From a virus, in the IMG/VR virus record IMGVR_UViG_3300034104_006230, positions 1-48,272 of that record: a DNA stretch of 48,272 bases; one strand, given 5' to 3'. Below the pieces are notes generated by a model. It did no database searches, was not told the origin of the DNA, and saw only the letters and a program-made list of their open reading frames with translations. Shown here one piece after another: positions 9,927 to 48,272 of the stretch (positions within the stretch are counted from its first letter, which is position 1; each line of letters begins with the position of its first letter). The translations under genes and the position numbers were made by a program.

Positions 9927-10994
9927 ATGAGTGAAAAATTAAAAAACATCGAAAAACTACAAGACGCATTATTGAGGTTAGAAACAAAAGAAAATAAAAT
10001 CTATTTCTTATGTTACGATACCAGAGGCGCAGCTAAAGCTTCAGTTAAACACATATATGATATGGCGTTTTTCCTTAAAGAGGCTGGAATGGATAGTAAT
10101 ATATTGGTAGAAGACGCGAACTATGCTGGTGTGTCTAGCTGGTTAGATGAAAAATACAGTCAAATACCTGTTGTTTCAATTAAGGATAATAAAGTTGAAA
10201 TGTCTATTGATGATGTATTAGTAATACCTGAACAGTATTCTAACGTTTTACAACAATTATCTAACATTAGATGTACTAAAATTATGTTTGTACAACAGAA
10301 AGAATATATGTATGATTCATTACCAATCGGTAGTCGTTGGATAGATTATGGTATTGAAAAAATTATTACCACAACAAATGCTGCTAAAAAATACATAGCA
10401 GAATATTTTCCAGAATCGTTGGTGTTTGTTATACCACCGGTTATTGAGGATTATTTTACAAAATCAGAAAAATCTCAAAAACCATATATTGCGATTAGTG
10501 TAAGAGACCGTGTTAAACACAGAAAACTTATTTCTGAATTTTATTTAAAATACCCACAATTAAGATGGGTTACTTTTAAAGATATGGTACAAATGTCAAA
10601 TAAAGAATTTGCAGATTCATTAAAAGAATGTTTAGTATCATTATGGTTAGATGATGATAGTACTTTTGGTACTTTCCCATTAGAATCGATGAAATGTAAT
10701 GTACCAATTGTTGGTAAAATTCCATCAACAGAGCCTGATTGGTTAAGTGAAAATGGTATTTGGACATATGATGAAAATAAGTTAGTTGAATTACTAGGAA
10801 CATACACTTTAGCTTGGTTGGAGGGTGCTGGAATTACTGATGAAGTAAAAGACAAAATGAAAGAAACCTTAACACCATATGATAAAGAGATAACAAAAAA
10901 TAATGTTATTAACATATTTGAATCATTCAATTCAAAAAGAATTGAAACAATAACAAAAGCGTTGGAAAAATTAAAAGAAGAAGAAACAGTATGA
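9927..10994 (+). CDS. Glycosyltransferase-like protein (GT-B, GT4-like)
   Basis: 355 residues. The first half has a Rossmann-like start (KIYFLCYDTRGAAKASVKHIYDMAFFLKEAG, seen as short matching pieces) and a central strand-loop with IIPP-type VFVIPPVIEDYF. The second half contains FGTFPLESMKCNVPIVG, the typical E-x-x-x-x-x-x-x-E-like donor region of GT4 enzymes (Glu in PLESMK, then P-I-V-G). It overlaps the next gene by 4 nt (ATGA), implying translational coupling with a GT2-like partner. Probably modifies a glycan together with it; acceptor unknown. Confidence 0.7.
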   Translation: MSEKLKNIEKLQDALLRLETKENKIYFLCYDTRGAAKASVKHIYDMAFFLKEAGMDSNILVEDANYAGVSSWLDEKYSQIPVVSIKDNKVEMSIDDVLVIPEQYSNVLQQLSNIRCTKIMFVQQKEYMYDSLPIGSRWIDYGIEKIITTTNAAKKYIAEYFPESLVFVIPPVIEDYFTKSEKSQKPYIAISVRDRVKHRKLISEFYLKYPQLRWVTFKDMVQMSNKEFADSLKECLVSLWLDDDSTFGTFPLESMKCNVPIVGKIPSTEPDWLSENGIWTYDENKLVELLGTYTLAWLEGAGITDEVKDKMKETLTPYDKEITKNNVINIFESFNSKRIETITKALEKLKEEETV

Positions 10995-11776
10995 AAAATA
11001 TCACAGTAATATTACCCGTTCACAAAATCGATGAAGATTATAAAGACATGTTGCAATACTCTGTCGAATCAGTTAAACAATTTTACAATGATGTAAAATT
11101 ATTAGTTGTAGCACCAAATAGTTTAAAAAACGATCTAAGTAAAATTGATTTAGGTCAAAAACTAGAAATTAGTTATCACTACCATACCAGTGATACTGAT
11201 TTTTGTTCACAAATAAATGAAGGTGCAAAAATATGTGAAACAGAATGGTTTTCAATTCTTGAAATTGATGACGAATACCAAAAAGTTTGGTTACCTAGTT
11301 TAAATCAATATATGATAGAAAATCCGGAAGCAGAAGTTTTCTTACCTATTGTAAAAGATATCGACGAAAAGGGAAATTTCACAAATTTCACAAATGAATC
11401 TGTTTGGGCGTATGGATTTTCTGAAGTTCAAGGAGAATTGGATAATGAAGTGTTATTAGAATATCAAAGTTACCAAATAAGTGGTGGTCTTTATAAAACT
11501 AAGAAATTTTTAGAAGTTGGTGGTCTAAAGTCAAATATAAAATTAACATTTGGTTACGAACTTTTATTAAGATTAACGCATAATGGTTCAAAAATTGTTG
11601 TAATTCCTAGACTTGGTTATAGACATGTCAATTTAAGAGAAGATTCTCTTTTTTGGAAATATAAAAATGATGATACATTGAAATTGGGTGAAAAGGAAGC
11701 TAAATTTTGGATCGACACCGCAAAAAAAGAATTTTTCTTCACAAATAAACGAGAAGTAAATTATAATGAAAATTAA
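10991..11776 (+). CDS. Glycosyltransferase family 2-like (GT-A)
   Basis: 261 residues starting MKNITVILPVHK, the usual GT2 opening strand. It has a nucleotide-binding region, a DxD-like metal site in SILEIDDEYQK, and a later ISGGLYKTKKFLEVGGL segment typical of the acceptor region of GT2 enzymes. It is translationally coupled to the preceding GT-B gene (ATGA overlap) and to the sigma-like gene after it (TAATG overlap). It likely acts with its neighbour on one glycan. Sugar and acceptor cannot be read from the sequence. Confidence 0.8.
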   Translation: MKNITVILPVHKIDEDYKDMLQYSVESVKQFYNDVKLLVVAPNSLKNDLSKIDLGQKLEISYHYHTSDTDFCSQINEGAKICETEWFSILEIDDEYQKVWLPSLNQYMIENPEAEVFLPIVKDIDEKGNFTNFTNESVWAYGFSEVQGELDNEVLLEYQSYQISGGLYKTKKFLEVGGLKSNIKLTFGYELLLRLTHNGSKIVVIPRLGYRHVNLREDSLFWKYKNDDTLKLGEKEAKFWIDTAKKEFFFTNKREVNYNEN

Positions 11777-33007: not shown

Positions 33008-33376
33008 TTAGTTTAATGAGATTAATCTTTCTAATGATTTCTTTTTGTCTATAGGTAGTGCTACCTCGAGCACCCCATTTTCAACCTTCCCAACAATGTC
33101 TTTTTCTCTAACATTGTCTGGAATAACGTACGTTTTAGTGAAATTACCGACGAAACTCATTCTTTCGTCCTTTTCCTCTTTCTCAAATGATATTTTTAAA
33201 ACACCATCTTTTATTGAGAGTTTTAGGTCTTCTTTGGTTAAACCAGGTATAGACAAAAACACTTTATATTCGCTTTCATTTTTGCGAATAGTTGATTGTG
33301 GGCTAGCCACTGTTTTAGTTGTGTCAAAAACTTTGTCCACAACATCAAAAAACGGGTCTCTAAATAATGTGATCAT
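33008..33376 (-). CDS. hsp20: Small heat shock protein (Hsp20/alpha-crystallin)
   Basis: 122 residues with a full alpha-crystallin domain: YKVFLSIPGLTKEDLKLSI, DGVLKISFE, FTKTYVIPDNV, and the C-terminal VENGVLEVALP (the family G-V-L motif). Short N-terminal arm (DPFFDVVDKVFD) precedes it. sHsps hold unfolded proteins for refolding. Phage-encoded copies are known in cyanophages. It is divergent from the ClpC-like gene 159 nt away, with shared repeats between them, so both may respond to the same signal. It ends in a strong terminator. Confidence 0.93.
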   Translation of the reverse strand: MITLFRDPFFDVVDKVFDTTKTVASPQSTIRKNESEYKVFLSIPGLTKEDLKLSIKDGVLKISFEKEEKDERMSFVGNFTKTYVIPDNVREKDIVGKVENGVLEVALPIDKKKSLERLISLN

Positions 33377-33401
33377 AATATATAATTTTTTTTATTTACA
33401 T

Positions 33402-33416
33402 TTTACAAATTGTAAA
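33402..33416. promoter_or_regulatory. Operator-like palindrome TTTACAA-A-TTGTAAA
   Basis: Perfect 7-bp arms around one base, 26 nt upstream of the hsp20 start on the minus strand and inside the divergent hsp20/clpC intergenic region. The symmetry and position fit a dimeric repressor site. Confidence 0.4.
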
Positions 33417-33420
33417 CCAA

Positions 33421-33469
33421 ATGTCTAAAACTGACATTTAGACATTCCTTAGACATTTTTTTAGACATT
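33421..33469 (+). repeat. Helically phased TTAGACATT repeats
   Basis: Three direct copies of TTAGACATT at 33438, 33449 and 33461 (spacing 11 and 12 bp, about one helical turn). An inverted ATGTCTAA is at 33421-33428 and a partial GACATT at 33433. They lie between the divergent hsp20 and clpC-like genes and look like a regulator-binding array. Confidence 0.65.
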
Positions 33470-33508
33470 TTGTCAACGCTTATCTTTTTTTTTCTGAAAA
33501 AAAATCCG

Positions 33509-33516
33509 TATGTTTG
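33509..33516 (+). promoter_or_regulatory. Bacteroidota-type -7 element for the clpC-like gene
   Basis: TATGTTTG matches TAnnTTTG, the -7 consensus of Bacteroidota housekeeping promoters, 18 nt before the ATG at 33535. The -33 position has TTTT rather than TTTG, so the promoter may need activation. Confidence 0.5.
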
Positions 33517-33534
33517 CTAATAAATCAAAAAGTT

Positions 33535-35553
33535 ATGCCAGTAGACTTCGAATACGAGGAAAATCAAAGAACAAATCCGAAAAACAGAAAAAGTACAACA
33601 GGTACACCTATTCTAGATAATTTTTCTAGAGACCTAATTAAATTAGCTCAAGAAGGTAAGATTGATCCGGTTGTGGGTAGGGATAAAGAAGTTAAAAGGA
33701 TTGCACAAATTCTTTCAAGAAAGAAAAAAAATAACGCAGTTATCGTTGGGGATGCTGGTGTTGGTAAATCGGCACTAGTTGAGAAATTAGCCCTAATGAT
33801 ATCTAAGGGCGACTGCCCAACCAATCTATTGGACAAGAGGGTTGTTTCCCTTGATTTAACATCTCTTGTTGCTGGTACAAAATATCGCGGACAATTTGAA
33901 GAAAGAATCAAAGCAATCTTACACGAACTTCAAGAAAATCCAGATGTTGTTGTGTTTATTGATGAGTTACACACAATGGTTGGTGCGGGTAATGCTAGTG
34001 GTTCTATGGACGCGGCTAATATTCTAAAACCAGCATTAGCAAGAGGTGAAATTCAATGTATCGGTGCCACAACATTCGATGAGTTTAAAAAACATATTGA
34101 AAAGGATGGTGCTTTAGTTAGACGTTTCCAAAAGATTATTTTGAAAGAACCAACGGAAACTGAAACAATTGAAATTTTAAATAACTTACAAAAATCATAT
34201 GAAGACTATCATAAAGTTACATATGGTGAAGAGGTAGTAGAAACAATTGTAAGATTATCTGGAAGGTATATGACTGATAAACAATTTCCAGATAAAGCAA
34301 TTGATGTTTTAGATGAACTTGGGTCAGAAAAAAGAGTAATAACTAAAGTTCCAGAAATTATCGATAGATTAAAAAAAGAAATCGAGGATATTAGAAATAA
34401 AAAGATCGAAGTTGTTAAAGCACAAGTTTATGAACAAGCAGCAAAACTAAGAGACGAAGAAAAAAAGGTTTTAAAGAAACTCGAAGACGAAAAGAACAAG
34501 TGGTTGGATAAACAAAAAGGTAATTTGATTCCAGTAACTGTTGAAGACGTTTATGATATGGTTTCTAATATTACTGGAATTCCAATAACTAAAATTGATA
34601 ATACCGAGGTAAGTAACTTACTTAATTTGGAAAATGAATTATCAAGTAAAGTGATTGGTCAAGATGATGCAATTTCTATCATATCTAAAGCAATTAGAAG
34701 AAATAGGGTTGGTATCAAAGACAATAAAAAACCTATTGGGTCATTTATCTTCATAGGATCTACCGGTGTTGGTAAAACGTATTTAGCTAAAAGTTTAGCT
34801 CAATTAATATTTGGGTCGGAAGAAAAGGTTATTCGTGTAGACATGAGTGAATACATGGAAAAACATGCAGTGTCTAGATTGATCGGTTCTCCTCCAGGTT
34901 ATGTTGGATATGATGAGGGTGGTCAATTAACTGAAAAAGTTAAAAACAACCCATTCTCAGTTATCTTATTTGATGAAATCGAGAAAGCACATAAAGACGT
35001 GTTTAATATATTACTTCAAATATTAGATGAAGGACACCTTACAGATTCATTCGGTAGAAAAGTTAATTTCACCAACACTTTGATTATTATGACATCTAAT
35101 GTTGGCGCGAAAAAAGTGTCAGAATTCGGTAACGGTGTAGGCTTTTCAACAATGAGTAGTCAAACACAGCAATATGAGGTTAAAAAAACAATGATACAAA
35201 AATCATTGAAGCAGCAATTTAACCCAGAGTTTTTGAATAGAATAGATGATATTATTTTATTTAATTCTTTAAATGAAGAGTCGCTTAAAAAAATTATTGG
35301 CTTGGAAATCAATAAGTTATCAGACAGATTAAAAGAGAAAAAATATCTTGTTTCCTTTGATGATTCTGTTTTGAATGAGATTATTCACAGAAATAAAGAA
35401 GAGGCTTATGGTGCTAGACCAATAAAAAGAATTATACAGTCACTTTGTGAGGACTTTTTAAGTGATCAGATTTTGATGGGTGCGATTAAGGAAAATAAGC
35501 CTGTTAAATTAATTTATAAGGAAAAAATGGTCTTAAAAACGAAAATCATATAG
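33535..35553 (+). CDS. clpC: ClpC-like AAA+ unfoldase lacking the N-domain
   Basis: 672 residues from ATG 33535, preferred over an in-frame TTG at 33514 that overlaps the -7 element. Two AAA+ modules: Walker A GDAGVGKS (K78) and Walker B FIDELH (D143, E144), then Walker A GSTGVGKT (K414) and Walker [11 protein letters not shown] (D480, E481). A short middle region has the UVR-like [13 protein letters not shown]. Normal ClpC has an about 150-residue N-domain, absent here. The V-G-F tripeptide (535-537) after SNVGAKK is where ClpC docks on ClpP. So it could engage host ClpP with altered substrate choice. Arranged opposite hsp20. Confidence 0.92.
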
Positions 35554-35713: not shown

Positions 35714-35745
35714 TTTGGTTTTTATGTTTTTTTTAGTTATATTTA
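35714..35745 (+). promoter_or_regulatory. Bacteroidota-type promoter for the lipoprotein gene
   Basis: TTTG (35714-35717), 20-nt spacer, then TATATTTA (35738-35745), fitting the TTTG / TAnnTTTG consensus with one mismatch. The start codon is 8 nt downstream, so the leader is very short or absent. Confidence 0.5.
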
Positions 35746-35752
35746 ACATAGT

Positions 35753-35971
35753 ATGAAAAAATATACATTTATTTTTGCTCTTGGTGTAGCACTTACACTA
35801 ACAGCATGTGGTTCAGGATCTGCCACAAAGGAAGCAACAGATTCAACTGCTGCACAAGTTGATACAGCTGCTGTACCTACAGCTGATTCAACGGCAAGCG
35901 TAGTAGAAGCCCCAGTAGCACCAGCTGACCCGGCTAAACCGGAAGCAACTGCAACTGAAGCGGTAAAATAA
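35753..35971 (+). CDS. Small Ala/Thr/Pro-rich lipoprotein
   Basis: 72 residues with a type II signal peptide (MKKYTFIFALGVALTLTAC, lipobox L-T-A-C, lipidated Cys19). The mature 54 residues are Ala/Thr/Pro/Glu-rich and unstructured. Similar Ala-rich small lipoproteins are common in Bacteroidota. In a phage, a short Pro-rich lipoprotein could be an outer spanin, the partner of a membrane protein with a coiled coil; the next gene has a helix and coiled coil but the two are separated by a terminator. The residue after Cys is Gly, so no clear export-to-surface signal (no K/D/E-rich stretch next to Cys). Confidence 0.7.
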   Translation: MKKYTFIFALGVALTLTACGSGSATKEATDSTAAQVDTAAVPTADSTASVVEAPVAPADPAKPEATATEAVK

Positions 35972-35976
35972 GAAAT

Positions 35977-36006
35977 GGGCCAGACAATCTGGCCCTTTTT
36001 ATTTTT
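35977..36006 (+). terminator. Intrinsic terminator after lipoprotein gene
   Basis: An 8-bp stem (GGGCCAGA / TCTGGCCC, loop CAA) followed by TTTTTATTTTT, six nt after the stop codon. Confidence 0.95.
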
Positions 36007-36049
36007 AAACATTCTAAAATAATGTGTAATTTGTTTTTTTGGATTTTTT

Positions 36050-38431: not shown

Positions 38432-38566
38432 ATGTTAAACTTAATTATATTCATTCTTTTAATTTGCTCATCACTTGGAGCTACTATTTCTAAAACAACA
38501 AAGGAATATGGTGTTAAAAAACAAAGAAGTCACACCGAACCACTAGTAATAGATAAAGAAGTTTAA
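38432..38566 (+). CDS. Small hydrophobic-N-terminal peptide (44 aa)
   Basis: A short open reading frame, ATG 38432 to TAA 38566, encoding MLNLIIFILLICSSLGATIS followed by a basic polar tail of 24 residues. The N-terminus looks like a signal or membrane segment and the ATG is preceded by an A-rich tract. It overlaps the stop of the opposite outer-membrane gene by 4 nt in a tail-to-tail arrangement, as seen for bS21. Coding status is plausible but unproven for so short a gene. Confidence 0.4.
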   Translation: MLNLIIFILLICSSLGATISKTTKEYGVKKQRSHTEPLVIDKEV

Positions 38567-39984
38567 AGTATCATTCTTGATCCAATTAAAAAGTTACTTA
38601 AAAATGGAGACCCTGCTGCGGTATTGCCACTTAATTTATAGTTTACAGTAAACCCAAATCTTTTAGTTATTTTATAATCAAAAGATGATCCAAGTAAAAA
38701 TCCAAAATTTTTATTTACTGTTGATTCTCCAGTAAGACTATTCCAGGAAATTGGCGCAAACATTGTAAACAGTTGTGGGGAAATACTTAATTTCTTATTG
38801 TATTGATAAGGTTTTGTCCAAAACGCAACAACAGATGATGACATATTATGATCATATCCATTGTCCATATTTTTAAGCATTAGATTAATTATACCAACAT
38901 TATATCCAAATACCCCATATTTTGGTGTTGGTTTAATATAGGTATAACCTAGTAAATTCATGTAATTACCATTTAGATATGCAAATGCTGTTGAATAAGA
39001 ATGTATAGCTTTTAACTTACCATTAGCGAAGTCCATTTTGGTATAGCCACCACTAACAATAAATGTTTTTAAATCACTCATAATAACAGTATTTGCGGAA
39101 TAACTCTCATCACCCATTAATGATGATTTAGAAACACCAATAGTTGCTGATTGTAACCATCTACCATCTGGTGATTCTATAACAGATAAATCTGAAGATA
39201 ATAACATTGGATTTGACACCGCAGCTTTTTCTTTTTTCTTTTCTTCCTTTTTCTCTTCTTTCTTTTCTTCTTTTTTCTCTTCTTTAGATTCTTCTTTTTT
39301 CTCTTCTTTAGATTCTTCTTTCTTTTCTTCTTTTTTAGATTCTGATTTTGATTCTTCTTTTTTCTCCTCACTTTTACTTTCTGATTTAGATTCGCTTTTG
39401 CTCTCAGATTTAGATTCTGTCTTAGCTTCTGTCTTAGTCTCAGTTTTACTTTCTGAAGAAGAGCTTGAACCAGAAGATGAAGATGAACCACCAGAACTTT
39501 GTGATGAAGAAGATGATGTACCACTACTAGCCGGTGGCGGAGGTGTTGATGTTGGCGGAGGTGTGCTTGAAGCAGTACTTGCTGCAGCGCTACTAGCTGA
39601 ACTACTAGCCGCTGAACTTGCTGAACTACTTGCTGCAGATGATGCTGCGCTACTAGCCGCCGCAGATGCGGCATTTGTTGCTGTTTGTGCTGCTGCGTTT
39701 GTAACAGCTTGTTGTACAATAGGATTATTGATCACCGGGCATGTAAGAGATTCGTATGTTGCTTTTGTGGTTAACAACCAAGCCTGCACAACACCTGTTT
39801 GTACCTCTAATGGTGAAAATGTCCTTATTTGATTATAAAACGAAACAGTTGCATAACCGTTAATCATTGTTGTAGTGGCCGTTTTTTTCTCACCACTACA
39901 TTTATCTATAAAAGTTTGTGTGTAGGTTTGGCCAAACGAGTTTATCGAAATAAAAATAAAAATAAAAAATAATATTTTTTTCAT
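38563..39984 (-). CDS. Exported beta-barrel-like protein with low-complexity linker
   Basis: 473 residues. Signal peptide MKKILFFIFIFISINSFG, cleavage before Q19, as in many Bacteroidota. Residues 20-95 form a small domain. An Ala/Ser-rich stretch (96-140), Pro-rich 141-151, Ser-rich 153-177 and a Ser/Lys/Glu stretch (178-253) follow. The C-terminal 220 residues have alternating amphipathic strands (KLSISPQLFTMFA, GSSFDYKITKRFGFTVNYKLS, FLIGSRMIL), like an outer-membrane barrel ending in a hydrophobic strand. It shares the KxSPQxFxM and DYKITKRF segments with the 43849 gene. An exported, envelope-located phage protein. Confidence 0.65.
   Translation of the reverse strand: MKKILFFIFIFISINSFGQTYTQTFIDKCSGEKKTATTTMINGYATVSFYNQIRTFSPLEVQTGVVQAWLLTTKATYESLTCPVINNPIVQQAVTNAAAQTATNAASAAASSAASSAASSSASSAASSSASSAAASTASSTPPPTSTPPPPASSGTSSSSSQSSGGSSSSSGSSSSSESKTETKTEAKTESKSESKSESKSESKSEEKKEESKSESKKEEKKEESKEEKKEESKEEKKEEKKEEKKEEKKKEKAAVSNPMLLSSDLSVIESPDGRWLQSATIGVSKSSLMGDESYSANTVIMSDLKTFIVSGGYTKMDFANGKLKAIHSYSTAFAYLNGNYMNLLGYTYIKPTPKYGVFGYNVGIINLMLKNMDNGYDHNMSSSVVAFWTKPYQYNKKLSISPQLFTMFAPISWNSLTGESTVNKNFGFLLGSSFDYKITKRFGFTVNYKLSGNTAAGSPFLSNFLIGSRMIL
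39226..39699 (-). repeat. Low-complexity coding tracts (Ala/Ser, then Ser/Lys/Glu)
   Basis: The coding strand contains near-tandem AAxSS codons followed by SKSE, KKEE and EEKK units; on the plus strand this shows as repeated TTCTTCTTTTTTCTC blocks. The DNA repeats are close to exact over units of 12-24 nt and may slip during replication. Confidence 0.8.
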
Positions 39985-40778
39985 TACTTATTATGTAATC
40001 CAACACTTATTTGATTGAAATTTCTTATTGGATCTCTATCTAATTTTAATGTAAAGAATTTAAAGTCTCTTATTATACCAAATTTAAATGTGGTGAAATT
40101 TGAATTTGATTTTGGAAATGATATACCACCAAGAGCATCTCTACCTTGATATCTTATATTTTCATTACCGAATCCAATCATTCCATGAACACCTAATTTT
40201 CCAAATCTTTTACCACCACCAAGATATAACGTACCTTGTTTAATAAAATCGTTATCACTAACTGGGAAATCAACTATATCAATTCTACCATATGGGTAAT
40301 ACTGATTTTGATCAATGTCATAAGACATTGTGTAATCTAAAATAAAATAACCTTTCTTTCTTCCGGCAGCACCCCAAAAAGATACTTGTTTATTATTTGT
40401 ATAACCAATACCAAAAGAAGTATAAACCGATTCTTTTCTGATTGTATCTCTTTTACCATTTTCATAAACATGAATTACACTTCGTTGTCTCCAGCCCAAA
40501 TCATCATACCAAATATATGGAAACGGTTGATACCAACCCCAGTTTCCCCAATAGTATCCAAATTGATTAGGTCTACCCCAATTTTGAATTCGACCTCTTC
40601 CACGAGGATCTGGTTGAGATGTATTATTTCTCCATCTACTAACATCGTTTCTTTGCGGAACAGATGGGGTTATTCTAGGTGTTTCTACTCGTTGTTGAGG
40701 TGGATTATTTCTCCAAGATGAAACTTGACCAAACATATATGATGGTACAAGTAATAGCGCTAATAGTATATATTTCAT
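39984..40778 (-). CDS. Exported outer-membrane-like protein, Trp/Arg-rich
   Basis: 264 residues. Signal peptide MKYILLALLLVPSYMFG with cleavage before Q18. Residues 18-80 are Pro/Arg/Gln/Asn-rich and contain two similar WRNN boxes (SSWRNNPPQQ and SRWRNNTSQP), followed by an aromatic patch (GYYWGNWGWYQPFPYIWYDD). The C-terminal 160 residues have barrel-like strands (TSFGIGYTNNKQVSFWGAA, GGGKRFGKLGVHGMIGFG, TLKLDRDP). It abuts the 38563 gene (shared base), so it is co-translated. Not a known family by eye. Confidence 0.6.
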   Translation of the reverse strand: MKYILLALLLVPSYMFGQVSSWRNNPPQQRVETPRITPSVPQRNDVSRWRNNTSQPDPRGRGRIQNWGRPNQFGYYWGNWGWYQPFPYIWYDDLGWRQRSVIHVYENGKRDTIRKESVYTSFGIGYTNNKQVSFWGAAGRKKGYFILDYTMSYDIDQNQYYPYGRIDIVDFPVSDNDFIKQGTLYLGGGKRFGKLGVHGMIGFGNENIRYQGRDALGGISFPKSNSNFTTFKFGIIRDFKFFTLKLDRDPIRNFNQISVGLHNK

Positions 40779-40793
40779 ACCTTATTGTTTTAT

Positions 40794-40801
40794 TATAAAT
40801 A
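40794..40801 (-). promoter_or_regulatory. Candidate late promoter TATTTATA
   Basis: On the minus strand TATTTATA lies 15 nt before the ATG at 40778. Confidence 0.45.
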
Positions 40802-40802
40802 T

Positions 40803-40827
40803 AAAAAAAGGAGGTTATTATACCTCC
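40803..40827 (-). terminator. Intrinsic terminator after CsgG-like gene
   Basis: GGAGGT / ACCTCC stem (6 bp, 6-nt loop) followed on the minus strand by TTTTTTTAT. It lies 26 nt after the stop of the CsgG-like gene. Confidence 0.75.
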
Positions 40828-40853
40828 CTTTGAATAAATCTTGTTATTCTGTA

Positions 40854-41573
40854 TTATTTTGTGAATATACCTTTTTTGATCATTCTATCAAGAATGTTGG
40901 CACATGCTATATCTAATGCCTTTTTAGTTGCAATTGATATGGTAGACTGATTAAATTTAATTGGATCAACTGTTGCGTCTGATAATAGTGTTAACTCTCT
41001 ACTTGTTTTAGCTTCACCCAAACCAGATGCCCCGAAGACAATACCTGTTTCGGCATTGGTAAATCTAACTTGTAAACCAATTCTTGTAACCATATTATCT
41101 TTAATTCCGTCCTTTAAGTTGATTGTCTCATCTTCAGAAATAGAATAATCATAACATTCAATAGTTACAAAATACTCAGCTAGATTAATCTTACCTCTAC
41201 CATCTAGTTTATTTTCAGAAATCCCAGCTTGTGATGCTTGGAATTGTTTAACCATTCTATTTTTAATTTCGGTTTTATCTTCAGTAAATTTAAATCTATT
41301 TAAATTCTCTAGATATTCCATTGAGATATTTGCAACACCTAGACCGACTCTTTTTTCTTTTAATTCTGGGTACATTTCATATACTTCATCTGATATACCC
41401 GCTTTTAAAATTTGTATAGGTATTTGTGGACCATCATAATCAAGATATGCTGAAATATCTTTTTTCTTTTCAAAATCAGCTTTATATTCTTCTGTTTTTG
41501 TTTTCCCTATTGTTTGGGCATTTGACGTTATACCGATTAGTATAATCGATAGTAATAGAAATATTTTTTTCAT
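40854..41573 (-). CDS. CsgG-like exported protein
   Basis: 239 residues from ATG 41573 (an upstream in-frame codon at 41621 is not needed). Signal peptide MKKIFLLLSIILIGITSNA, cleavage before Q20. The core resembles CsgG family proteins: RVGLGVANISM, then NRMVKQFQAS, LAEYFVTIECYDYSI, GLQVRFTNAETGIVFGASGLGEA, and a terminal helix LDIACANILDRMI. CsgG forms the outer-membrane curli channel; this protein has no lipobox Cys, which true CsgG needs. A CsgG-fold periplasmic or outer-membrane protein is the best reading. CsgG-like genes are known in some cyanophages. Own octamer at 41588. Confidence 0.55.
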   Translation of the reverse strand: MKKIFLLLSIILIGITSNAQTIGKTKTEEYKADFEKKKDISAYLDYDGPQIPIQILKAGISDEVYEMYPELKEKRVGLGVANISMEYLENLNRFKFTEDKTEIKNRMVKQFQASQAGISENKLDGRGKINLAEYFVTIECYDYSISEDETINLKDGIKDNMVTRIGLQVRFTNAETGIVFGASGLGEAKTSRELTLLSDATVDPIKFNQSTISIATKKALDIACANILDRMIKKGIFTK

Positions 41574-41587
41574 ATGTTTTGTTTTAA

Positions 41588-41595
41588 AATAAATA
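41588..41595 (-). promoter_or_regulatory. Candidate late promoter TATTTATT
   Basis: On the minus strand TATTTATT lies 14 nt before the ATG at 41573. Confidence 0.4.
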
Positions 41596-41597
41596 TA

Positions 41598-41622
41598 AAT
41601 GGGGAATATTAACTTCCCCATT
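41598..41622 (-). terminator. Intrinsic terminator after small membrane gene
   Basis: A perfect 9-bp stem (AATGGGGAA / TTCCCCATT, loop of 7 nt) followed on the minus strand by TATATTTATTTT. It ends the run of holin-like genes just after the 41625 stop and overlaps the following promoter-like octamer. Confidence 0.75.
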
Positions 41623-41624
41623 AT

Positions 41625-41843
41625 TTATTTACTATACCAAATATTTTCTGGATTATTTTTAAACCTACCATCGATCTTCCATGTTATCTCGTTGGCGATT
41701 CTTGCCATTTCTTCATCCTGGTTTGTCGATATTAAAAACACGCCGTATAGTTGGAATGCTAGAGCGAACATGATCCATGCACCAGTTAATGCTAGGAATG
41801 TGTTGAATAATAAATTTTTACCTTTAGTTAATATATTTTTCAT
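41625..41843 (-). CDS. Small single-helix membrane protein
   Basis: 72 residues. One hydrophobic helix (LLFNTFLALTGAWIMFALAFQLYGVFLI in outline, about 10-38), preceded by a basic N-terminus (MKNILTKGKN) and followed by a charged soluble tail ending ENIWYSK. N-in topology expected from the positive-inside rule. It is in a run with two other membrane genes (41866, 42165), a possible lysis group. No family recognised. Confidence 0.55.
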   Translation of the reverse strand: MKNILTKGKNLLFNTFLALTGAWIMFALAFQLYGVFLISTNQDEEMARIANEITWKIDGRFKNNPENIWYSK

Positions 41844-41865
41844 CTTTAATTATAATGTTGTTTTT

Positions 41866-42126
41866 TTACCCCTCCACTTCCTCTTCTTTTTTAACGTTTT
41901 TGTTATTGATCCATTTGTCTACAGATGCAATACCAAACGCCCCAAGAGTGATAACTAAAAAGCCATCAAATATGAATTCGTTTATTACTAATGGTTTACC
42001 CATATAGCCTGTCACCAAATCAACAACTAATGCAATTACCATGCATATAAAAGATGAAAATCCGACTACCGATTTTTCGTTAATAGAGTTGTTGTCATTA
42101 AATAATTCCTTTAAGAAACTTGCCAT
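41866..42126 (-). CDS. Holin-like two-helix membrane protein
   Basis: 86 residues with two transmembrane helices (VVGFSSFICMVIALVVDLVTGYM and FDGFLVITLGAFGIASV, outline), an N-terminal amphipathic segment (FLKELFNDNNSINEKS) and a charged C-terminus (KNVKKEEEVEG). This is the size, topology and charged tail of class II phage holins, and similar FLKELF...N-starting proteins are annotated as holins in other phages. No endolysin gene is seen in this window. Call based on topology and context. Confidence 0.5.
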   Translation of the reverse strand: MASFLKELFNDNNSINEKSVVGFSSFICMVIALVVDLVTGYMGKPLVINEFIFDGFLVITLGAFGIASVDKWINNKNVKKEEEVEG

Positions 42127-42164
42127 GTTTTTAAATTTTGTTTTTAAATTTTGTTTATTTTTAT

Positions 42165-42767
42165 TTATCCTTCCATTGTCATTTCTGCGTAATCATCTCT
42201 GATCTTACCGCACTTCAAACATTCTTCAGTACCATCACCGTCTAAGTCACCCCAAACGTGTTCACACTGTCTGTGTGCGAAATATTCATCGATTTTACCA
42301 TCACCATCGAAATCTAAACCATCCATTACACCATCTCCATCTTCATCGATTTCAACACCTTTCTTTTCAGTAGGTAATTCCGATATTTTAGGTAATGTTA
42401 CTGTTTCTTCGGTCTTCGGTAATACTAATGGTGCAGTTGACATTGGTGTAATTGGGTTATTTGGCATATCTGCAGTATTGCTTAATGATGTACCATCCTC
42501 TTCGTCCATTTTTTGTACTAACATCTTATCTTTGTCTGTATCACTAAACCAGTAATCAATGATTTTACCATAAGAACCAATGAAAGCTCCTAACAATAAT
42601 AAAAGAAGTTCTTTCCATTCACCCTCAATTGCGGATTTATTCAAAATTGCTCCGAATATACCCATTATGATAATCATAAAACCACCTAAAACGATAGCCG
42701 TGATGAACCATCTACGTTTCATCATGTTACTTAATAATTCTTTAAATCCGCTAGCTTGTTGTTCCAT
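42165..42767 (-). CDS. Membrane protein with Ca-binding loops and Cys/His cluster
   Basis: 200 residues. Two N-terminal hydrophobic helices (about 21-42 and 53-70) are followed by WFSDTDKDKMLVQKMDE, a stretch that also follows helices in some phage holin-like proteins. A disordered linker (about 90-138) leads to two adjacent Asp-rich 12-residue loops, DEDGDGVMDGLD (141-152) and DFDGDGKIDEYF (152-163), typical of EF-hand or thrombospondin-type-3 calcium sites. C168-x-H170 and C183-x2-C186 flank a third DLDGDG segment, like a zinc ribbon. An unusual fusion. Confidence 0.6.
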   Translation of the reverse strand: MEQQASGFKELLSNMMKRRWFITAIVLGGFMIIIMGIFGAILNKSAIEGEWKELLLLLLGAFIGSYGKIIDYWFSDTDKDKMLVQKMDEEDGTSLSNTADMPNNPITPMSTAPLVLPKTEETVTLPKISELPTEKKGVEIDEDGDGVMDGLDFDGDGKIDEYFAHRQCEHVWGDLDGDGTEECLKCGKIRDDYAEMTMEG

Positions 42768-42773
42768 ATTATA

Positions 42774-43100
42774 TTACCATTTAGGGGCTTCTTCTTTAAA
42801 TTCGTCGCCTTCTTTTTTCTTAGTTTTAGTTGCAGGTTGTGCTGGCTGAGCTGCCGGTTTTTCAACCACCCTTTCTTTAATAACTGTAGTTCCACCAGCT
42901 TGTTGAGCTTGTTGATTAGAGTTGGTGATATTAATTACCGGTGCGGCTTGTTGTACAGGGGCATCATCTTTTTCACCACCTGTTATTTGGGTTACCCCCC
43001 AAGTACCTAATCCCATTACTGCTGTTGTTGCAACACCAATAATTGTTTTTTTAAGACCTGACCAAGTACCATCATTTGTGTTTTCTACTTCTTCTGACAT
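42774..43100 (-). CDS. Hypothetical membrane protein with disordered tail
   Basis: 108 residues. A single hydrophobic helix (TIIGVATTAVMGLGTWGVTQI, about 19-39) follows an acidic N-terminus; the rest is Gln/Ala/Pro/Lys-rich and disordered, ending KKKEGDEFKEEAPKW. No lipobox. It is 6 nt upstream of the 42165 gene and 18 nt downstream of a lipoprotein gene on the same strand, so it is likely in the same transcript. Possibly a membrane anchor or small spanin-like part, without firm evidence. Confidence 0.55.
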   Translation of the reverse strand: MSEEVENTNDGTWSGLKKTIIGVATTAVMGLGTWGVTQITGGEKDDAPVQQAAPVINITNSNQQAQQAGGTTVIKERVVEKPAAQPAQPATKTKKKEGDEFKEEAPKW

Positions 43101-43117
43101 TGTTTTATATTTAAATT

Positions 43118-43498
43118 TTAGTTTATTTTATTGAAATCTGTTATTCCTAATTGTTTACCATTAGCATCGAATAACCCAATTCTGTATGCTGATGAAGGTA
43201 ATGCGTTAGTATAAACTTTTAATACGTTATCTCCAGCAACAACATTCATAGTCTCTTTAGAAACTACTCTATTTGAGATATCAAATATTCTAATTGTTAC
43301 TGATCCGGCTGTTTCTGTTTTAACATTCATGGCAACCTCAGATGTTACGAAAGCTGTTTGTAATTTAATACCCACAGAACTTGCCATCTTAAGATCTTCA
43401 GATATTGCCTGTGGTGCGGGTAAAATATCGTCTTTATAACATCCACTTAAAATTGTGGATATTAATACAATTAAGAGGGTTTTTTTCATTTTTGCCAT
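43118..43498 (-). CDS. Lipoprotein with Por/T9SS sorting-domain-like fold
   Basis: 126 residues; a second ATG at 43489 (MKKTLLIVLIST) may be the true start. Lipobox L-S-G-C follows the hydrophobic signal. The mature part has a beta-sandwich pattern like a T9SS type-A sorting domain: VTIRIFDISNRVVSKETMNV, then AGDNVLKVYTNALPSSAYRIGLFDANGKQLGI. In type IX secretion this domain is C-terminal on large cargo; here it is a whole lipoprotein. Neighbour 43504 has the same pattern, so they are probable paralogues. Likely outer-membrane facing. Confidence 0.6.
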   Translation of the reverse strand: MAKMKKTLLIVLISTILSGCYKDDILPAPQAISEDLKMASSVGIKLQTAFVTSEVAMNVKTETAGSVTIRIFDISNRVVSKETMNVVAGDNVLKVYTNALPSSAYRIGLFDANGKQLGITDFNKIN

Positions 43499-43503
43499 TT
43501 TTT

Positions 43504-43845
43504 TTACTTTACAATTATTGTTGTCTTTTTTAGTTGGTTTCTACTTCCATCCTCAAGAACTAAATATAAATATCTAACTTGTAGTGATTTGGTATAAATT
43601 TTTTTAATATTCTCGCCACTTTGACCGGCAAATTTTTCCCGGCTTATTACTTGCCCAGTTTCTTTGTCTATTAATGTCAAAAAGTATGTCCCAGCCGACG
43701 GCAAGTCAAAATAAATTGATTGGTTATCAATTACGTTACTTTCACCAACATTAAATATCTTTTCAACAGGTGGTTCTGGTGTTGGTAACTCTGGTTTAGT
43801 ACAACCCCACAGTAAAACAAGTAATACAAATGATATTTTTTTCAT
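43504..43845 (-). CDS. Lipoprotein with T9SS sorting-domain-like fold
   Basis: 113 residues. Signal peptide MKKISFVLLVLLWG with lipobox-like L-W-G-C at Cys15 (Trp at the -2 position is uncommon), then a Pro-rich spacer (TKPELPTPEPP). The C-terminal 80 residues read like the last strands of a T9SS-type sorting domain: GTYFLTLIDKETGQVISREKF, then SGENIKKIYTKSLQVRYLYLVLEDG. Resembles its neighbour 43118 in layout. Cotranscribed with 43849 (3 nt apart). Confidence 0.6.
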   Translation of the reverse strand: MKKISFVLLVLLWGCTKPELPTPEPPVEKIFNVGESNVIDNQSIYFDLPSAGTYFLTLIDKETGQVISREKFAGQSGENIKKIYTKSLQVRYLYLVLEDGSRNQLKKTTIIVK

Positions 43846-43848
43846 ATA

Positions 43849-44742
43849 TTAAAATTGAAAGTTTGTTCCTATCATAAACATTATTGGGTTGGCTTTTTTA
43901 TATCCTACTGATTCTGATAATTTATCCCAAGTCCTATTAAATCTTATATTCGTATTTAAAACAAATCTTTTAGTTATTTTCCAATCCATAGATGTGCCAT
44001 AATATAAATCCAAATTGAAATCATCCATATATCCTAAATCCGATTCAGTGCCATCTTTGAATACTTTGTAGATATCACTCATAGCAAATATTTGTGGAGA
44101 TATATTGACTCTCTTGGTTTTTATTGTATAAGTGTACATTAGCATTCCTTTATATGTGGTTTCTGATGATGACGGCATTTGCGGATAAATTAAATCCAAA
44201 AAGTCACCATTAGCATCTACAGTATATTTTCCTTCCCACTCACCTTGATATACCCCCCAATATGTTTTTGAAGCAATTAGACTATATCCGAATGTTCCAA
44301 ACTTTTTAGTTCTGAATACATCTATGAATGAAAGATTGATATCTTTTTGGAAATCAAAATCCGTTGAATAAAATGTTTGTAAAGTGGTTGTTCTCTTATC
44401 AGTATTTCTACTAAAACCATAACCAACACCATAGTAATTCCATATAGGGTTTATTGATGTTGAGAATGAATGAGTCCATTTACCATTTTGAGATGATTTA
44501 CTATAACCTAAATTTAATGTACTTGAAACTTGTTTTCCAATTATACCGACTGATAAGTTTGAAGACGATAATACATCTTTTGAAAAATCAATATATGATT
44601 GTAGTATTCCTATATCATTCCAGTCATCACTTTCCCCAAATAATTCTTTTGGTGAAAGTTGTAATGTGTCTGGTTTTACAATTTGTGCATTCGTAACAAA
44701 TGTTGTACAAATTAGTGACAATATGATTATTAGTTTTTTCAT
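43849..44742 (-). CDS. Exported beta-barrel-like outer-membrane protein
   Basis: 297 residues. Signal peptide MKKLIIILSLICTTFVTNA with cleavage before Q20. From about residue 60 the sequence alternates aromatic strands and short turns (STLNLGYSKSSQNGKWTHSFSTSINPIW, GVGYGFSRNTDKR, LIASKTYWGVYQG), ending with MFMIGTNFQF, a C-terminal Phe as in many outer-membrane barrels. KRVNISPQIFAMSD and DWKITKRFVLNTNIRF match the SPQxFxM and DYKITKRFGFTVNY segments of the 38563 gene, so the two share a barrel type. Role in the host membrane unknown. Confidence 0.65.
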   Translation of the reverse strand: MKKLIIILSLICTTFVTNAQIVKPDTLQLSPKELFGESDDWNDIGILQSYIDFSKDVLSSSNLSVGIIGKQVSSTLNLGYSKSSQNGKWTHSFSTSINPIWNYYGVGYGFSRNTDKRTTTLQTFYSTDFDFQKDINLSFIDVFRTKKFGTFGYSLIASKTYWGVYQGEWEGKYTVDANGDFLDLIYPQMPSSSETTYKGMLMYTYTIKTKRVNISPQIFAMSDIYKVFKDGTESDLGYMDDFNLDLYYGTSMDWKITKRFVLNTNIRFNRTWDKLSESVGYKKANPIMFMIGTNFQF

Positions 44743-45002
44743 TAGTTTATTTTAATGTATTTTGGTGTTTTCCAAGGGTCTGAATAATATTCACCACTCT
44801 TCCATTTTTTTATTTTAAATCTTGCCATATCTTCGGAATAATAAACAATATTATCATCATACCATTTATCAAACCCAACTTTTCTCATTGGCAAATACAA
44901 TGAATAACCAGTTCCATCATATTGTATTATTTTAATTTTATAACTGGTGGTACAAGATGAAATAATTAAAAACAAAACAAATAGTAATAATATCTTTTTC
45001 AT
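44742..45002 (-). CDS. Small lipoprotein
   Basis: 86 residues. Signal peptide with lipobox I-S-S-C (Cys17) followed by TTSYKIKIIQYDGTGYSLYLPMRKVGF and an aromatic C-terminus (YYSDPWKTPKYIKIN). Short strands suggest a small beta domain. It abuts both neighbours (1-nt overlaps), placing it in one transcript with the cohesin-like protein and the barrel. No family recognised. Confidence 0.65.
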   Translation of the reverse strand: MKKILLLFVLFLIISSCTTSYKIKIIQYDGTGYSLYLPMRKVGFDKWYDDNIVYYSEDMARFKIKKWKSGEYYSDPWKTPKYIKIN

Positions 45003-47287
45003 TAATTTATTTTTATTTTTAATTGTGTACCATTTTTATTCACAGCATCTGTGGTTGATATTGATGTTAATCCCAATAGTCCTTGAATACCAATTTTTGG
45101 TATAAATGTTATTTTATATTCTGTTGTTTTATCTAATAATGTTGATCCATCAGTAATCAACGATCCTAATGTAATGTAATAACCTTTGTTCACCCCAAAA
45201 TTTGTTGGATTACCTTTTGTTATAAAATCAACCTTTTGAAATTCTAAAGCTGTATTATCATAGTTTAATTGAAATTGTGTACCAACTAATTCTTGTTGTA
45301 ATGGATCTACAGATATTGTTATTATAACTTTACCACCAACATTTTCACCCATTAAAGATGCATTAATTTGATTAGAAACTGTATTAGTTGTTAAACTCAT
45401 AGTTCTATATGAATTAGTAGCGACACTACTTACAGTTTGTTGTGCTGAATGGGATAAGTTTACATCACCTAACCAAGTTACACTAATATTATATGTGTTA
45501 TTTAATGATCCCAATGTAAATGGTATAAGGTTACGAGTTGAATTAAATTTAGTCCCCCAATTGCTGGTTGTTATTGCATCATAATCTGATTTATTATATA
45601 ATTTCATCAAATATGTTAATGCTGTGGATTGTGAAAGTGTTTGAACACCTGTTAAATGTTGTAATAATTTGTATGTATCTGCTTCATTGAAGACACCATT
45701 ACCATCTACATCCGCATTTAAATATTGAATACCATTTGTTAACCCTAATCCTGTTTGATTTCCAAATATTCCATTATCCGCCAATTCTTTAAACGCTAAA
45801 AACACATCTGTTACCGTTACAATACTACTATATAATGTGTTTAATTCCGTTTGATTTGAATGTGTTAATTCCATCCCATGTGGTTTATACCCCATTATTG
45901 GTGAGAAAGTAAATTCAGCTCTCGTTCCATACCAACCATCTTGTAATCTTAATTGAGATTGAAATGTTGATGAGGTTATTTTACTTGTCAAATTACCAGG
46001 CATTATATAAGTTTTCCAAAAACCACTTACATTATTAACAGTAACCGGCCCATCGTATATATCAAATAATTTAATCGATGTTACATTATTTGGAGACACT
46101 CCTGTTCCATCAAATTCTCTTTCGTCTATTAGTAATTGATGCCCACCTAAATTTGCATCATATGGATTTATTATTGCCCATTCAACCTGCCCAGCAGATG
46201 TTGTAGCTCTAATCCCACCATTTGAAACTTTTGCAGTATCTAATAAACTTGTCAAATCCACCTTACCCAAACCACTTAATTGTCTAGCCGTTCCGTTTAC
46301 TATATTCCAAGTATTATTTGTATATGTGTATCCTTTTGCCGAAAATTTAGTTTCATCAACATTACCACCAAAATCAACATTGAATGATGCTCTTAATACT
46401 TCTCCATTTGAGTGAGTTACACTATTAGTATAGAATTCAGTAAATGTTGCATCATCGGGGTTAGTCCAAGTTCCAAATTCAACTACATAAGCACAACTAA
46501 AGTTATTAGGTAAATCATTCCATTGAGAACCACCACCCCATTTTGTTACTGCGTAATCTTCATTACCACTATTGTTTGGTTCACCACCTGCCCAGTTATT
46601 GTATTGACCTACTATGTTTCCGTTTGTTTGTCCGTTTGATGTTTTGATTAAAGTTCCTGCTTCAGGTCCTGCATCAATTCTCCATTGTCCTTCAACTGCT
46701 TCATCCGTTAATGCAAACCAAATACTAGCTTGCGGAACATTGGCAAATATAAAAGCATCTTCCGAAGCAGATGTTATCGTTACCAAATAACCTTGCTGAC
46801 CTTTGAATGTTTGTTGAGATGATAGTGTTCTTGCATTTGTATAAGTTGCTCCGCTTGATATTGGTCTATAAAAGTGTCCATTAACACCATTGTAAAAATA
46901 ACCAACAGGATTTACAGTTGCTGCAACTGATAATTGAACATTACCAACCACTGAACCTGTGTTTATTTTTAATGATGCTAATGCAGTATTAATATCTGCC
47001 ATCGTTCCCAATACCACTAAACGAGTTTTATTACCCGTTAGTGTAAATCCACTTGCTGCAATTAATCCTCGTGTATCGTTAAGGTAAAAGGTGGTATTTG
47101 TCGATGGATTTATTAAACTGATTGATGCCAGTAAGGTGGATGTCGCACTAAATCCACTCAATACAAATCCACTTCCATCTTGTGCAGTTGTGGATGGTAT
47201 AAACGATTTAGAGTCCGGGGCAGATACACTCTGTCCGAACCCTAAAAATGAGATTAGTAAAAAACATATTACTAATAATTTCTTCAT
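45002..47287 (-). CDS. Exported protein with C-type lectin, dockerin-like and cohesin-like parts
   Basis: 761 residues from ATG 47287 (the TTG at 47296 overlaps the upstream stop). Signal peptide ends LGFG before Q19. Residues about 127-273 are a C-type lectin-like domain: TYTNARTLSS, SIWFALTDEAVEGQWRI, WAGGEPNNSGNEDYAV, WNDLPNNFSCAYVVEF. About 490-548 is dockerin-like: VTVTDVFLAF and a calcium loop DVDGNGVFNEAD (526-537), then LLQHLTG. About 637-761 is cohesin-like: VGGKVIITISV, GTQFQLNYDNTALEFQKV. A cohesin-like and a dockerin-like part in one phage protein is unusual. Adhesion or surface assembly is a plausible role. Confidence 0.65.
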   Translation of the reverse strand: MKKLLVICFLLISFLGFGQSVSAPDSKSFIPSTTAQDGSGFVLSGFSATSTLLASISLINPSTNTTFYLNDTRGLIAASGFTLTGNKTRLVVLGTMADINTALASLKINTGSVVGNVQLSVAATVNPVGYFYNGVNGHFYRPISSGATYTNARTLSSQQTFKGQQGYLVTITSASEDAFIFANVPQASIWFALTDEAVEGQWRIDAGPEAGTLIKTSNGQTNGNIVGQYNNWAGGEPNNSGNEDYAVTKWGGGSQWNDLPNNFSCAYVVEFGTWTNPDDATFTEFYTNSVTHSNGEVLRASFNVDFGGNVDETKFSAKGYTYTNNTWNIVNGTARQLSGLGKVDLTSLLDTAKVSNGGIRATTSAGQVEWAIINPYDANLGGHQLLIDEREFDGTGVSPNNVTSIKLFDIYDGPVTVNNVSGFWKTYIMPGNLTSKITSSTFQSQLRLQDGWYGTRAEFTFSPIMGYKPHGMELTHSNQTELNTLYSSIVTVTDVFLAFKELADNGIFGNQTGLGLTNGIQYLNADVDGNGVFNEADTYKLLQHLTGVQTLSQSTALTYLMKLYNKSDYDAITTSNWGTKFNSTRNLIPFTLGSLNNTYNISVTWLGDVNLSHSAQQTVSSVATNSYRTMSLTTNTVSNQINASLMGENVGGKVIITISVDPLQQELVGTQFQLNYDNTALEFQKVDFITKGNPTNFGVNKGYYITLGSLITDGSTLLDKTTEYKITFIPKIGIQGLLGLTSISTTDAVNKNGTQLKIKIN

Positions 47288-47288
47288 A

Positions 47289-48272
47289 TTACTCAACGAT
47301 TAAATCAACTTTATTTCCCTTCGCATCAACAGCATCAGATAAAACAAAGTAGAATAAACCGGCAGTATTTGTTAAAGTTGTTTTTGGTGTAAAAATTAAT
47401 TTATACGGTGTACCAATTTTAATTCTTGCAGCTTTAGTTTGATCAATAGAACCAAATGTTAATCTGCTACCTTCATGTGTTGTGAAGTTAGTTATTGTTG
47501 ATCCCGCGTCAAATATTACATTATCCAAACTTAATTTTGAATCATCATAATTCATAATAACTTGCAAGCCCGCCAATTCTGCTTTTGTTAAAGTTGTTGT
47601 TAACACCACTTTACCATTTTCTAATGTTGATGACACACCTAGTTTAGCAGTTTCAACAGCTTCTGTTTTATAAGCCATAGATGTTGACATACTCATATTT
47701 TTTATTGTGTTCACCTCACCATTCACTGAATTAGTATATAATCCAGAACTTATTCTACTAGCAATTACAGCAGGATCGGAAGAGTGTGACCAGTTTAAAT
47801 CACCACCCCAAGCAAATACTGCATGTACTTCTTTTATTGGTGTATCAATTAATACTCTATTCTTAACCACACCATCTAACCAACTTTGATTTAATAAACC
47901 ACTATACCATCTTACTGATGTTGAGGTTGATGTTGGGATCATCGCTGTTGATGACATATTTTGCCCCATCACATGTGCAAATAACGCGTATGAATCCGCT
48001 TCACCAAATGTATTTCCACTAAGTGAGACTTTACCAACTTTCTTTTCTAACGCTGGTAATGTAAAGAAATTTGCGGTCCCGCTAATATCTGTTTGTGAAT
48101 GTCCTAAAAATGCTTTATACGCATCTGATACCGTCACAATATTATTCATCCAAGCTTTAGTAAACGCCGCTCCAACAAATACACCAACCGAATCACCTAC
48201 TTTAACCTGTGTTGTGAAAAGAGCCTCACCACTAGCATCTAATGGTAATTGTGCGATAGGTGTTTGTGTCCA
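47289..48272 (-). CDS. Second dockerin/cohesin-like exported-type protein, partial (start outside window)
   Basis: Open on the minus strand to the right edge; the first visible codon is TGG at 48272 and 327 residues are seen. It parallels the 45002 gene: NIVTVSDAYKAFLGH and FGEADSYALFAHVMG correspond to VTVTDVFLAF and FNEADTYKLLQHLTG; VFAWGGDLNWSHSS corresponds to VTWLGDVNLSHSA; and GLQVIMNYDDSKLSLDNVIF corresponds to GTQFQLNYDNTALEFQKV. The Asp-rich calcium loop has decayed to VSLSGNTFGEAD, so calcium binding is doubtful. Tandem duplication is likely. It ends 1 nt before the ATG at 47287. The N-terminal part, perhaps with a lectin domain, is off the window. Confidence 0.6.
   Translation of the reverse strand, partial: WTQTPIAQLPLDASGEALFTTQVKVGDSVGVFVGAAFTKAWMNNIVTVSDAYKAFLGHSQTDISGTANFFTLPALEKKVGKVSLSGNTFGEADSYALFAHVMGQNMSSTAMIPTSTSTSVRWYSGLLNQSWLDGVVKNRVLIDTPIKEVHAVFAWGGDLNWSHSSDPAVIASRISSGLYTNSVNGEVNTIKNMSMSTSMAYKTEAVETAKLGVSSTLENGKVVLTTTLTKAELAGLQVIMNYDDSKLSLDNVIFDAGSTITNFTTHEGSRLTFGSIDQTKAARIKIGTPYKLIFTPKTTLTNTAGLFYFVLSDAVDAKGNKVDLIVE

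Follow-up and report, generated by a model that had tools for sequence, protein, structure and literature searches.

Exported proteins encoded at the right end of the window

The DNA analysed here, hereafter the window, is the whole 48,272-base virus record IMGVR_UViG_3300034104_006230, which represents a T4-like phage. Its right end, from 38563 to the window edge, carries 13 minus-strand genes, designated A to M from left to right and transcribed in the order M (cut by the edge), L, K, J, I, H, G, F, E, D, C, B, A. Strongly conserved blocks of this kind, each with some dozen envelope-protein genes, belong to a group of T4-like Bacteroidota viruses that is itself widespread, and their products probably remodel the surface of the infected cell late in infection. 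Comparison of their sequences gives good support to the view that the present one constitutes a coordinated, phage-owned set of envelope proteins.

Sec-type signals with clear n-, h-, and c-regions are encoded by eight complete genes of the block (A, B, C, H, I, J, K, and L), three of which (H, I, and K) feature lipoboxes; the signals end in FGQ in A, B, and L and in NAQ in C and J. This agrees with an earlier note, prepared from the sequence alone, which had counted at least eight proteins with signal peptides ending in FGQ or NAQ, including three lipoproteins, on this strand. The export signals were called with a simple hydrophobicity rule rather than with SignalP. By the same rule, a hydrophobic N-terminus was found in 10 of the 12 block genes, and a comparable one in none of the 41 genes checked elsewhere in the window (Fisher p 3e-9); hence, the block does not represent a chance cluster.

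Conservation and phage ownership

For comparison, 160 loci were fetched (some contigs occur among them twice). Most of them display the order C2-M-L-J-I-H-G-F-(E or an 82-residue substitute)-(D)-C-(B)-A, though some members are optional and inserts occur; C2, encoded directly upstream of M and outside the window, is another protein that is exported or anchored in the membrane. The adjacencies include G-F (121 loci), I-H (110), J-I (94), and M-L (92), so the synteny that the earlier note had proposed to look for in related phages is indeed conserved. That note had also considered that the contig might be a chimera joined to bacterial DNA near 38 kb. In ca. 70 loci, the A or B end is flanked by the phage genes that also flank it in the window (gp37905, RNA ligase, and Clp), so there is no junction at this position. 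Numerous independent contigs show this gene order and these neighbors, among them a separate record (L082) with an almost identical stretch, and the chimera was rejected.

Homologs of J were retrieved from 78 viral contigs (55–92% identity, mostly 78–92%), and those of C from at least 489 viral contigs. C is the most conserved member of the block: the median identity amounts to 86% for C and 85% for J vs. 76% for the neighboring Clp ATPase. A search of 84,980 prokaryote genomes with C yielded a single match, in a metagenome-assembled genome (G015), on a phage-like contig (L162) carrying the same kind of module; J was found in none of 118 genomes sampled from the same phylum as G015, although the J alignment did recover a phage contig. 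The block families therefore look phage-specific, their reservoir being most likely viral. No homolog of J was found in named phages. Each of the 11 phage contigs examined for the two genes contained either both C and G or neither, and C was present in 7 of 14 terminase-bearing contigs; these contigs are fragments, hence prevalence is hard to state.

To the left of the block, the Clp-type AAA+ unfoldase gene forms a divergent pair with that of a small heat-shock protein (Hsp20; 33008–35553). Between the Clp and kinase genes, an open reading frame of 89 residues rich in Ala, Ser, and Val is situated on the minus strand (35743–36012); it may not be a gene.

Lectin- and cohesin-type proteins

Two large products of the block are L (45002..47287) and M (47289..48272), the 5' end of the latter lying beyond the window. 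L is an exported protein with a C-type lectin domain (Pfam Lectin_C, E 1.4e-5, above the cut-off) and a C-terminal cohesin-like domain, and it matches the lectin-domain protein gp13 of the Flavobacterium phage immuto. Its Pfam Cohesin match falls just below the cut-off (E 1.1e-4, 22.9 bits vs. 24.1), whereas relatives of L score above it. The motif EPN...W[NG]D is present in 42 of the 59 distinct relatives of L, and L of the window features EPN...WND; in known lectins, this pair binds Ca2+ and mannose-type sugars. M is an exported protein of the cohesin type as well, with a weak cohesin match (E 0.011) and a length of ca. 547 residues in relatives. The relatives of M start with MKKALSLCIFLLVAMTSFGQ, which is also the signal of a full-length representative (L036:6038-7681). 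Of the “cohesin/dockerin-like” assignment made in the earlier note for these two proteins, the cohesin part finds support in the relatives of L, which pass the cut-off; the dockerin part comes down to D-x-D/N-G motifs, with no dockerin profile matched. The C-type lectin domain was overlooked there, as were the adjacent membrane proteins D–G.

Lipoproteins and their export signals

Between the large proteins and the small membrane proteins, three lipoproteins recognized by their lipoboxes are encoded. The small lipoprotein K (44742..45002) is present in only 4 of the 160 loci. I (43504..43845) and H (43118..43489) are paralogs according to their profiles (99.2% probability, E 6e-20), and their lipobox Cys is invariant in alignments of 25 and 27 rows, respectively. 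I harbors an Ig/CTD-like domain; H combines an export signal with a domain resembling the C-terminal domain (CTD) of type IX secretion system (T9SS) cargo. The Por_Secre_tail family is matched by 23 of 27 H sequences (best E 4e-4), and the H profile matches that of the T9SS sorting domain at 89% probability (E 2e-6). The lipoprotein export signal (LES) with the consensus C-X-K-(D/E)2-X directs lipoproteins to the surface in Capnocytophaga (PMC5080379). Exactly this signal follows the lipobox in H of the window (CYKDD) and in 41 of 110 relatives of H; in I, it is partial (CTKPE). In PDB, H matched only designed proteins over its first half, which was taken as chance.

In the window, no T9SS C-terminal sorting domain scored above the curated cut-off in L, M, H, or I. 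At the same time, two cohesin proteins of related modules, gp15 of immuto (L081:12691-13422) and its counterpart at L162:6310-8238, have a genuine type A sorting domain of the T9SS at their C-terminus (TIGR04183; 9e-12 and 2e-7, above the cut-off), providing a direct link between the module and the cell surface.

Predicted outer-membrane barrels

J (43849..44742) is predicted, with modest confidence, to be an outer-membrane beta-barrel. Its AlphaFold2 model is of low confidence (mean pLDDT 59, ca. 70–80 in the barrel part), and with Foldseek, every match at E < 0.001 is to an outer-membrane barrel protein or a BAM complex. The role of a PorP/SprF partner barrel was considered for J and dropped, since only general outer-membrane-barrel matches were obtained. 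A (38563..39984) is a paralog of J: the profiles align over 206 columns with 97.8% probability (E 1.2e-12), so that the SPQxF and DxKITKRF segments which, according to the earlier note, are shared by two barrel-like proteins reflect true homology. In A, an exported N-terminal domain with two Cys is joined to the C-terminal barrel by a low-complexity linker, rich first in Ala/Ser and then in Lys/Glu; the longest low-complexity run in the relatives of A comprises 72–240 residues (median 166). B (39984..40778), found in 69 of the 160 loci, is the Trp/Arg-rich exported protein of the earlier note; it consists of an exported Trp/Arg/Pro-rich segment and a small domain that is probably a third outer-membrane barrel.

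The CsgG-fold protein and small membrane proteins

C (40854..41573) is exported and, judging from its AlphaFold2 model (pLDDT 73), resembles CsgG in fold but not in sequence family. The best PDB matches of the model are CsgG chains (4uv2, E 2.8e-7; 6l7a, TM-score 0.47/0.48), followed by PelC. PDB searches at the sequence level with the C and J profiles returned nothing, the Pfam CsgG model (PF03783) does not recognize any sequence of the C family, and the C profile was not significantly similar to the CsgG-family proteins found in the phylum of G015. The signal of C ends in NAQ and contains no Cys, i.e., the lipobox is absent; the loops corresponding to the pore-forming part of CsgG look short and charged in a comparison by eye with CsgG, and the membrane hairpins may be lacking. 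For these reasons (no Pfam match, no lipobox, and the appearance of the loops), C was not filed as CsgG, and the “CsgG-like” label given to it earlier holds for the fold only. No Pfam match to CsgA/CsgB or CsgE/CsgF was obtained for the block proteins scanned (D, G, and K were not among them, and no dedicated search was made). A CsgG/TraT-like fold is suspected in C2, though tests of its profile against C and the CsgG family gave no significant match.

Four membrane proteins are encoded immediately upstream of C. D (41625..41843) has a single transmembrane segment by sequence, and in some relatives, C2 carries a D-like segment as an N-terminal fusion. E (41866..42126), a small holin-like protein with two such segments as judged from sequence and locus comparison, is replaced in many relatives by another family of 82 residues. 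F (42165..42767; 127 of the 160 loci) features two transmembrane segments followed by DxDGDG repeats and a CxxC-type tail. G (42774..43100; 135 loci) has a single N-terminal segment and a long polar tail with an invariant C-terminal Trp. The holin-like proteins of the block matched no holin family, and no endolysin is encoded in the block of the window.

A late-promoter motif

The motif TATTTATA occurs 12 times in the window, 8 times within 60 nt upstream of a gene start in the right orientation vs. 0.4 expected (at 1985, 4910, 8218, 17847, 23223, 26510, 28344, and 40794). The genes so preceded include those of the maturation protease (22511), portal (24709), terminase (26550), and B. An intrinsic terminator and then TATTTATA are located 5' of B (40794..40831, minus strand); likewise, the motif directly follows a hairpin terminator in the case of terminase. 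A hairpin followed by the shortened form TATATTTATT precedes C (41598..41622, minus strand) and is overlapped by an upstream extension of C starting from the ATG at 41621. The occurrences of TATTTATA upstream of H in relatives were set aside, as they are part of the I gene itself, in which they form YLYL codons.

By its placement, TATTTATA is probably the late promoter of this phage group. Because it is shared with structural genes and because a late-sigma-like gene is present (11776), the simplest reading, and a supported one, is that at least C, B, and A are expressed late. It was also observed that TATTTATA is the reverse complement of the late promoter of T4, TATAAATA. Elsewhere in the window, the Gp23 capsid protein is encoded at 19465, and glycosyltransferase-like genes (5519–6745 and 9927–11776) are found amid plus-strand phage genes.

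Optional genes of the module

In related phages, further genes are found in or beside the module. A TonB-dependent receptor (Plug and barrel above the Pfam cut-offs) is present in 22 loci (e.g., L003, L004, L006, L045, L055, and L119), and in 17 loci a beta-helix-like lipoprotein of 400 residues adjoins it. A GH19 endolysin is located in or beside the module in 30 loci, in 15 of them directly before C2. Other inserts are a class 3 lipase (27 loci, e.g., L009:13246-13989), an LpxH-like phosphoesterase together with a glycosyltransferase (17 loci; phosphoesterase, e.g., L066:14950-15663), FeoA (34 loci, e.g., L159:9672-9905), and an exported nuclease (20 loci). These genes are envelope-related, which supports the view of the module as a site where such phages gather envelope functions.

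Possible function of the block

The earlier note had suggested a coordinated modification of the host envelope. Its first part, a coordinated set belonging to the phage, is well supported by synteny and by the fact that no bacterial source was found; as to its purpose, exclusion, adhesion, a lysis aid, and surface assembly come into question. We favor, with a probability of roughly 0.45, a late envelope module for the surface display of lectin- and cohesin-type proteins, in which we infer the assembly of a complex, the surface location of L and M, and the purpose. Under this scenario, the block would be made late in infection and its products would assemble across the host envelope, with G, F, E, and D in the inner membrane and C (perhaps also C2) acting in the periplasm. 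J, A, and B would form outer-membrane barrels, A reaching into the periplasm via its long linker, and H and I, flipped to the surface by the lipoprotein export pathway of the host, would, jointly with the barrels, retain the adhesin-like proteins L and M there. The likely use of such a surface-display complex, possibly tied to lysis, would be glycan binding by the infected or lysing cell, e.g., holding to neighbors or surfaces, or receptor masking. The conserved gene order, the joint occurrence of C and G, the high conservation of C and J, the lectin domain of L, the exact LES of H, the sorting domains in immuto and L162, and the late-type motif speak for this scenario. A bolder version, which we advance only tentatively, envisages a phage-invented trans-envelope apparatus, unlike any described secretion or exclusion system in composition, with late lectin/cohesin display controlling cell stickiness before and during lysis.

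Several observations weigh against the display scenario. Neither L nor M possesses an identifiable outer-membrane secretion signal in the window, a true T9SS sorting domain was found in none of 10 large contigs of related phages, and the EPN...WND motif is absent from 17 of the 59 relatives of L. The promoter before C2-M lies outside the window, and TATTTATA precedes C2 in only 7 of 95 relatives. One 287-kb relative lacks C, J, and G, which means that the module can be dispensed with or that it is missing from this particular assembly. Finally, the endolysin genes located beside the module in some relatives count against display and speak for an elaborate lysis or release module, in which the holin-like E and F with G, the barrels, and the CsgG-fold proteins would join or open both membranes and A, with its barrel and periplasm-long linker, would be spanin-like. 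The class 3 lipase, the small transmembrane proteins adjacent in most loci, and the late-type motif fit this idea, and a lysis-gate role has been proposed for phage CsgGF in Melnitz (PMC9004378). Still, it appears somewhat unlikely: the block in the window has no endolysin, the lectin, cohesin, and surface-lipoprotein parts are unnecessary for lysis, and the TonB-dependent receptor and FeoA genes of relatives do not fit.

Surface-directed lipoproteins and barrels are also common means of blocking adsorption or DNA entry. That surface lipoproteins and adhesins of the block serve superinfection exclusion or mask receptors is nevertheless improbable, although for pelagimyophages it has been proposed that other surface genes help to avoid superinfection (PMC7029224). 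Exclusion typically depends on a single gene expressed early, whereas the block shares its motif with structural genes, and this late-type pattern argues against early exclusion; furthermore, the strong conservation of J and C is untypical of arms-race genes. Import of nutrients across the outer membrane, boosted during infection, is suggested by the TonB-dependent receptor, usually accompanied by the beta-helix-like lipoprotein, and by FeoA; these inserts are optional and absent from the window, and the core parts match no transporter, making this explanation distinctly improbable. As for virion or tail-fiber parts merely resembling exported proteins, the size, the adhesin-like nature, and the co-orientation of L and M with head genes are compatible with such a role. 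This reading, the least credible of all, was rejected on the export signals and gene location: by the rule applied, Sec signals and lipoboxes are clear across the families, and the immuto set resides among DNA-metabolism rather than structural genes.

As a rule, a phage has one gene, or a few, directed at the host envelope. In the loci compared, by contrast, an envelope operon of a dozen genes retains a nearly fixed order, and hardly any of it was found in bacterial genomes. If surface display is true, infected Bacteroidota would become coated with viral adhesins, which would bear on aggregation, biofilm, and virus spread in water.

Comparison with known systems

The set as a whole appears to have no described counterpart, and the earlier note, too, had found no known system with it: in those parts of the literature covered by searches for the set, for phage TonB receptors, and for cohesin or lectin phage genes, no description of it was encountered, CsgG and T9SS cargo being known in phages singly. 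A shorter version of the module is carried by immuto (NC_055915, 160 kb), a cultured phage of Flavobacterium sp. LMO8, making the question directly testable. Homologs of the lectin (gp13) and cohesin (gp15) proteins, G (gp16), C (gp17, 54% identity), and A (gp18) are encoded close together in Immutovirus along with gp14 and, probably, a homolog of C2 (gp19, C2-like by eye); they are mostly annotated as hypothetical, and the record proposes no function. No homologs of J, H, I, B, E, or F were seen in gp13–gp19.

Type VIII (curli-type) csgF/csgG operons have been described in pelagimyophages (PMC7029224) and in the methylophage Melnitz (PMC9004378), and in 2020 the CsgG-fold genes of pelagimyophages were said to have a role that was a mystery (PMC7029224). 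The block shares with these operons the T4-like background and an exported CsgG-fold protein with uncharacterized neighbors; curli subunits, which those operons lack, were not recognized among the block proteins scanned either. It differs from them in that C is devoid of the lipobox and of a Pfam CsgG match and may lack the transmembrane hairpins, that CsgF/E/A/B were not seen (no dedicated search was made), and that barrels, lectin/cohesin proteins, and surface lipoproteins are present. Like immuto gp15 and the L162 protein, proteins of the Bacteroidetes “Cryophage” bear sorting domains of T9SS type A (PMC7468147); there, however, the cargo is encoded by single, variable genes, whereas in immuto and L162 the domain belongs to a module of several genes that is conserved. 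The group to which the window belongs possesses only a remote CTD-like lipoprotein domain. With the SusCD-like surface lipoprotein complexes of Bacteroidota, the block has in common a barrel encoded together with LES-type lipoproteins, but no SusD match was obtained in the block and the core barrels J and A were not matched as TonB receptors.

Overall, the block represents a further case of CsgG-fold genes in T4-like phages, and the kind already known to which it comes closest is the phage-encoded envelope operon with a CsgG-fold protein. Since its core system fits none of the families tested, we lean towards regarding it as new.

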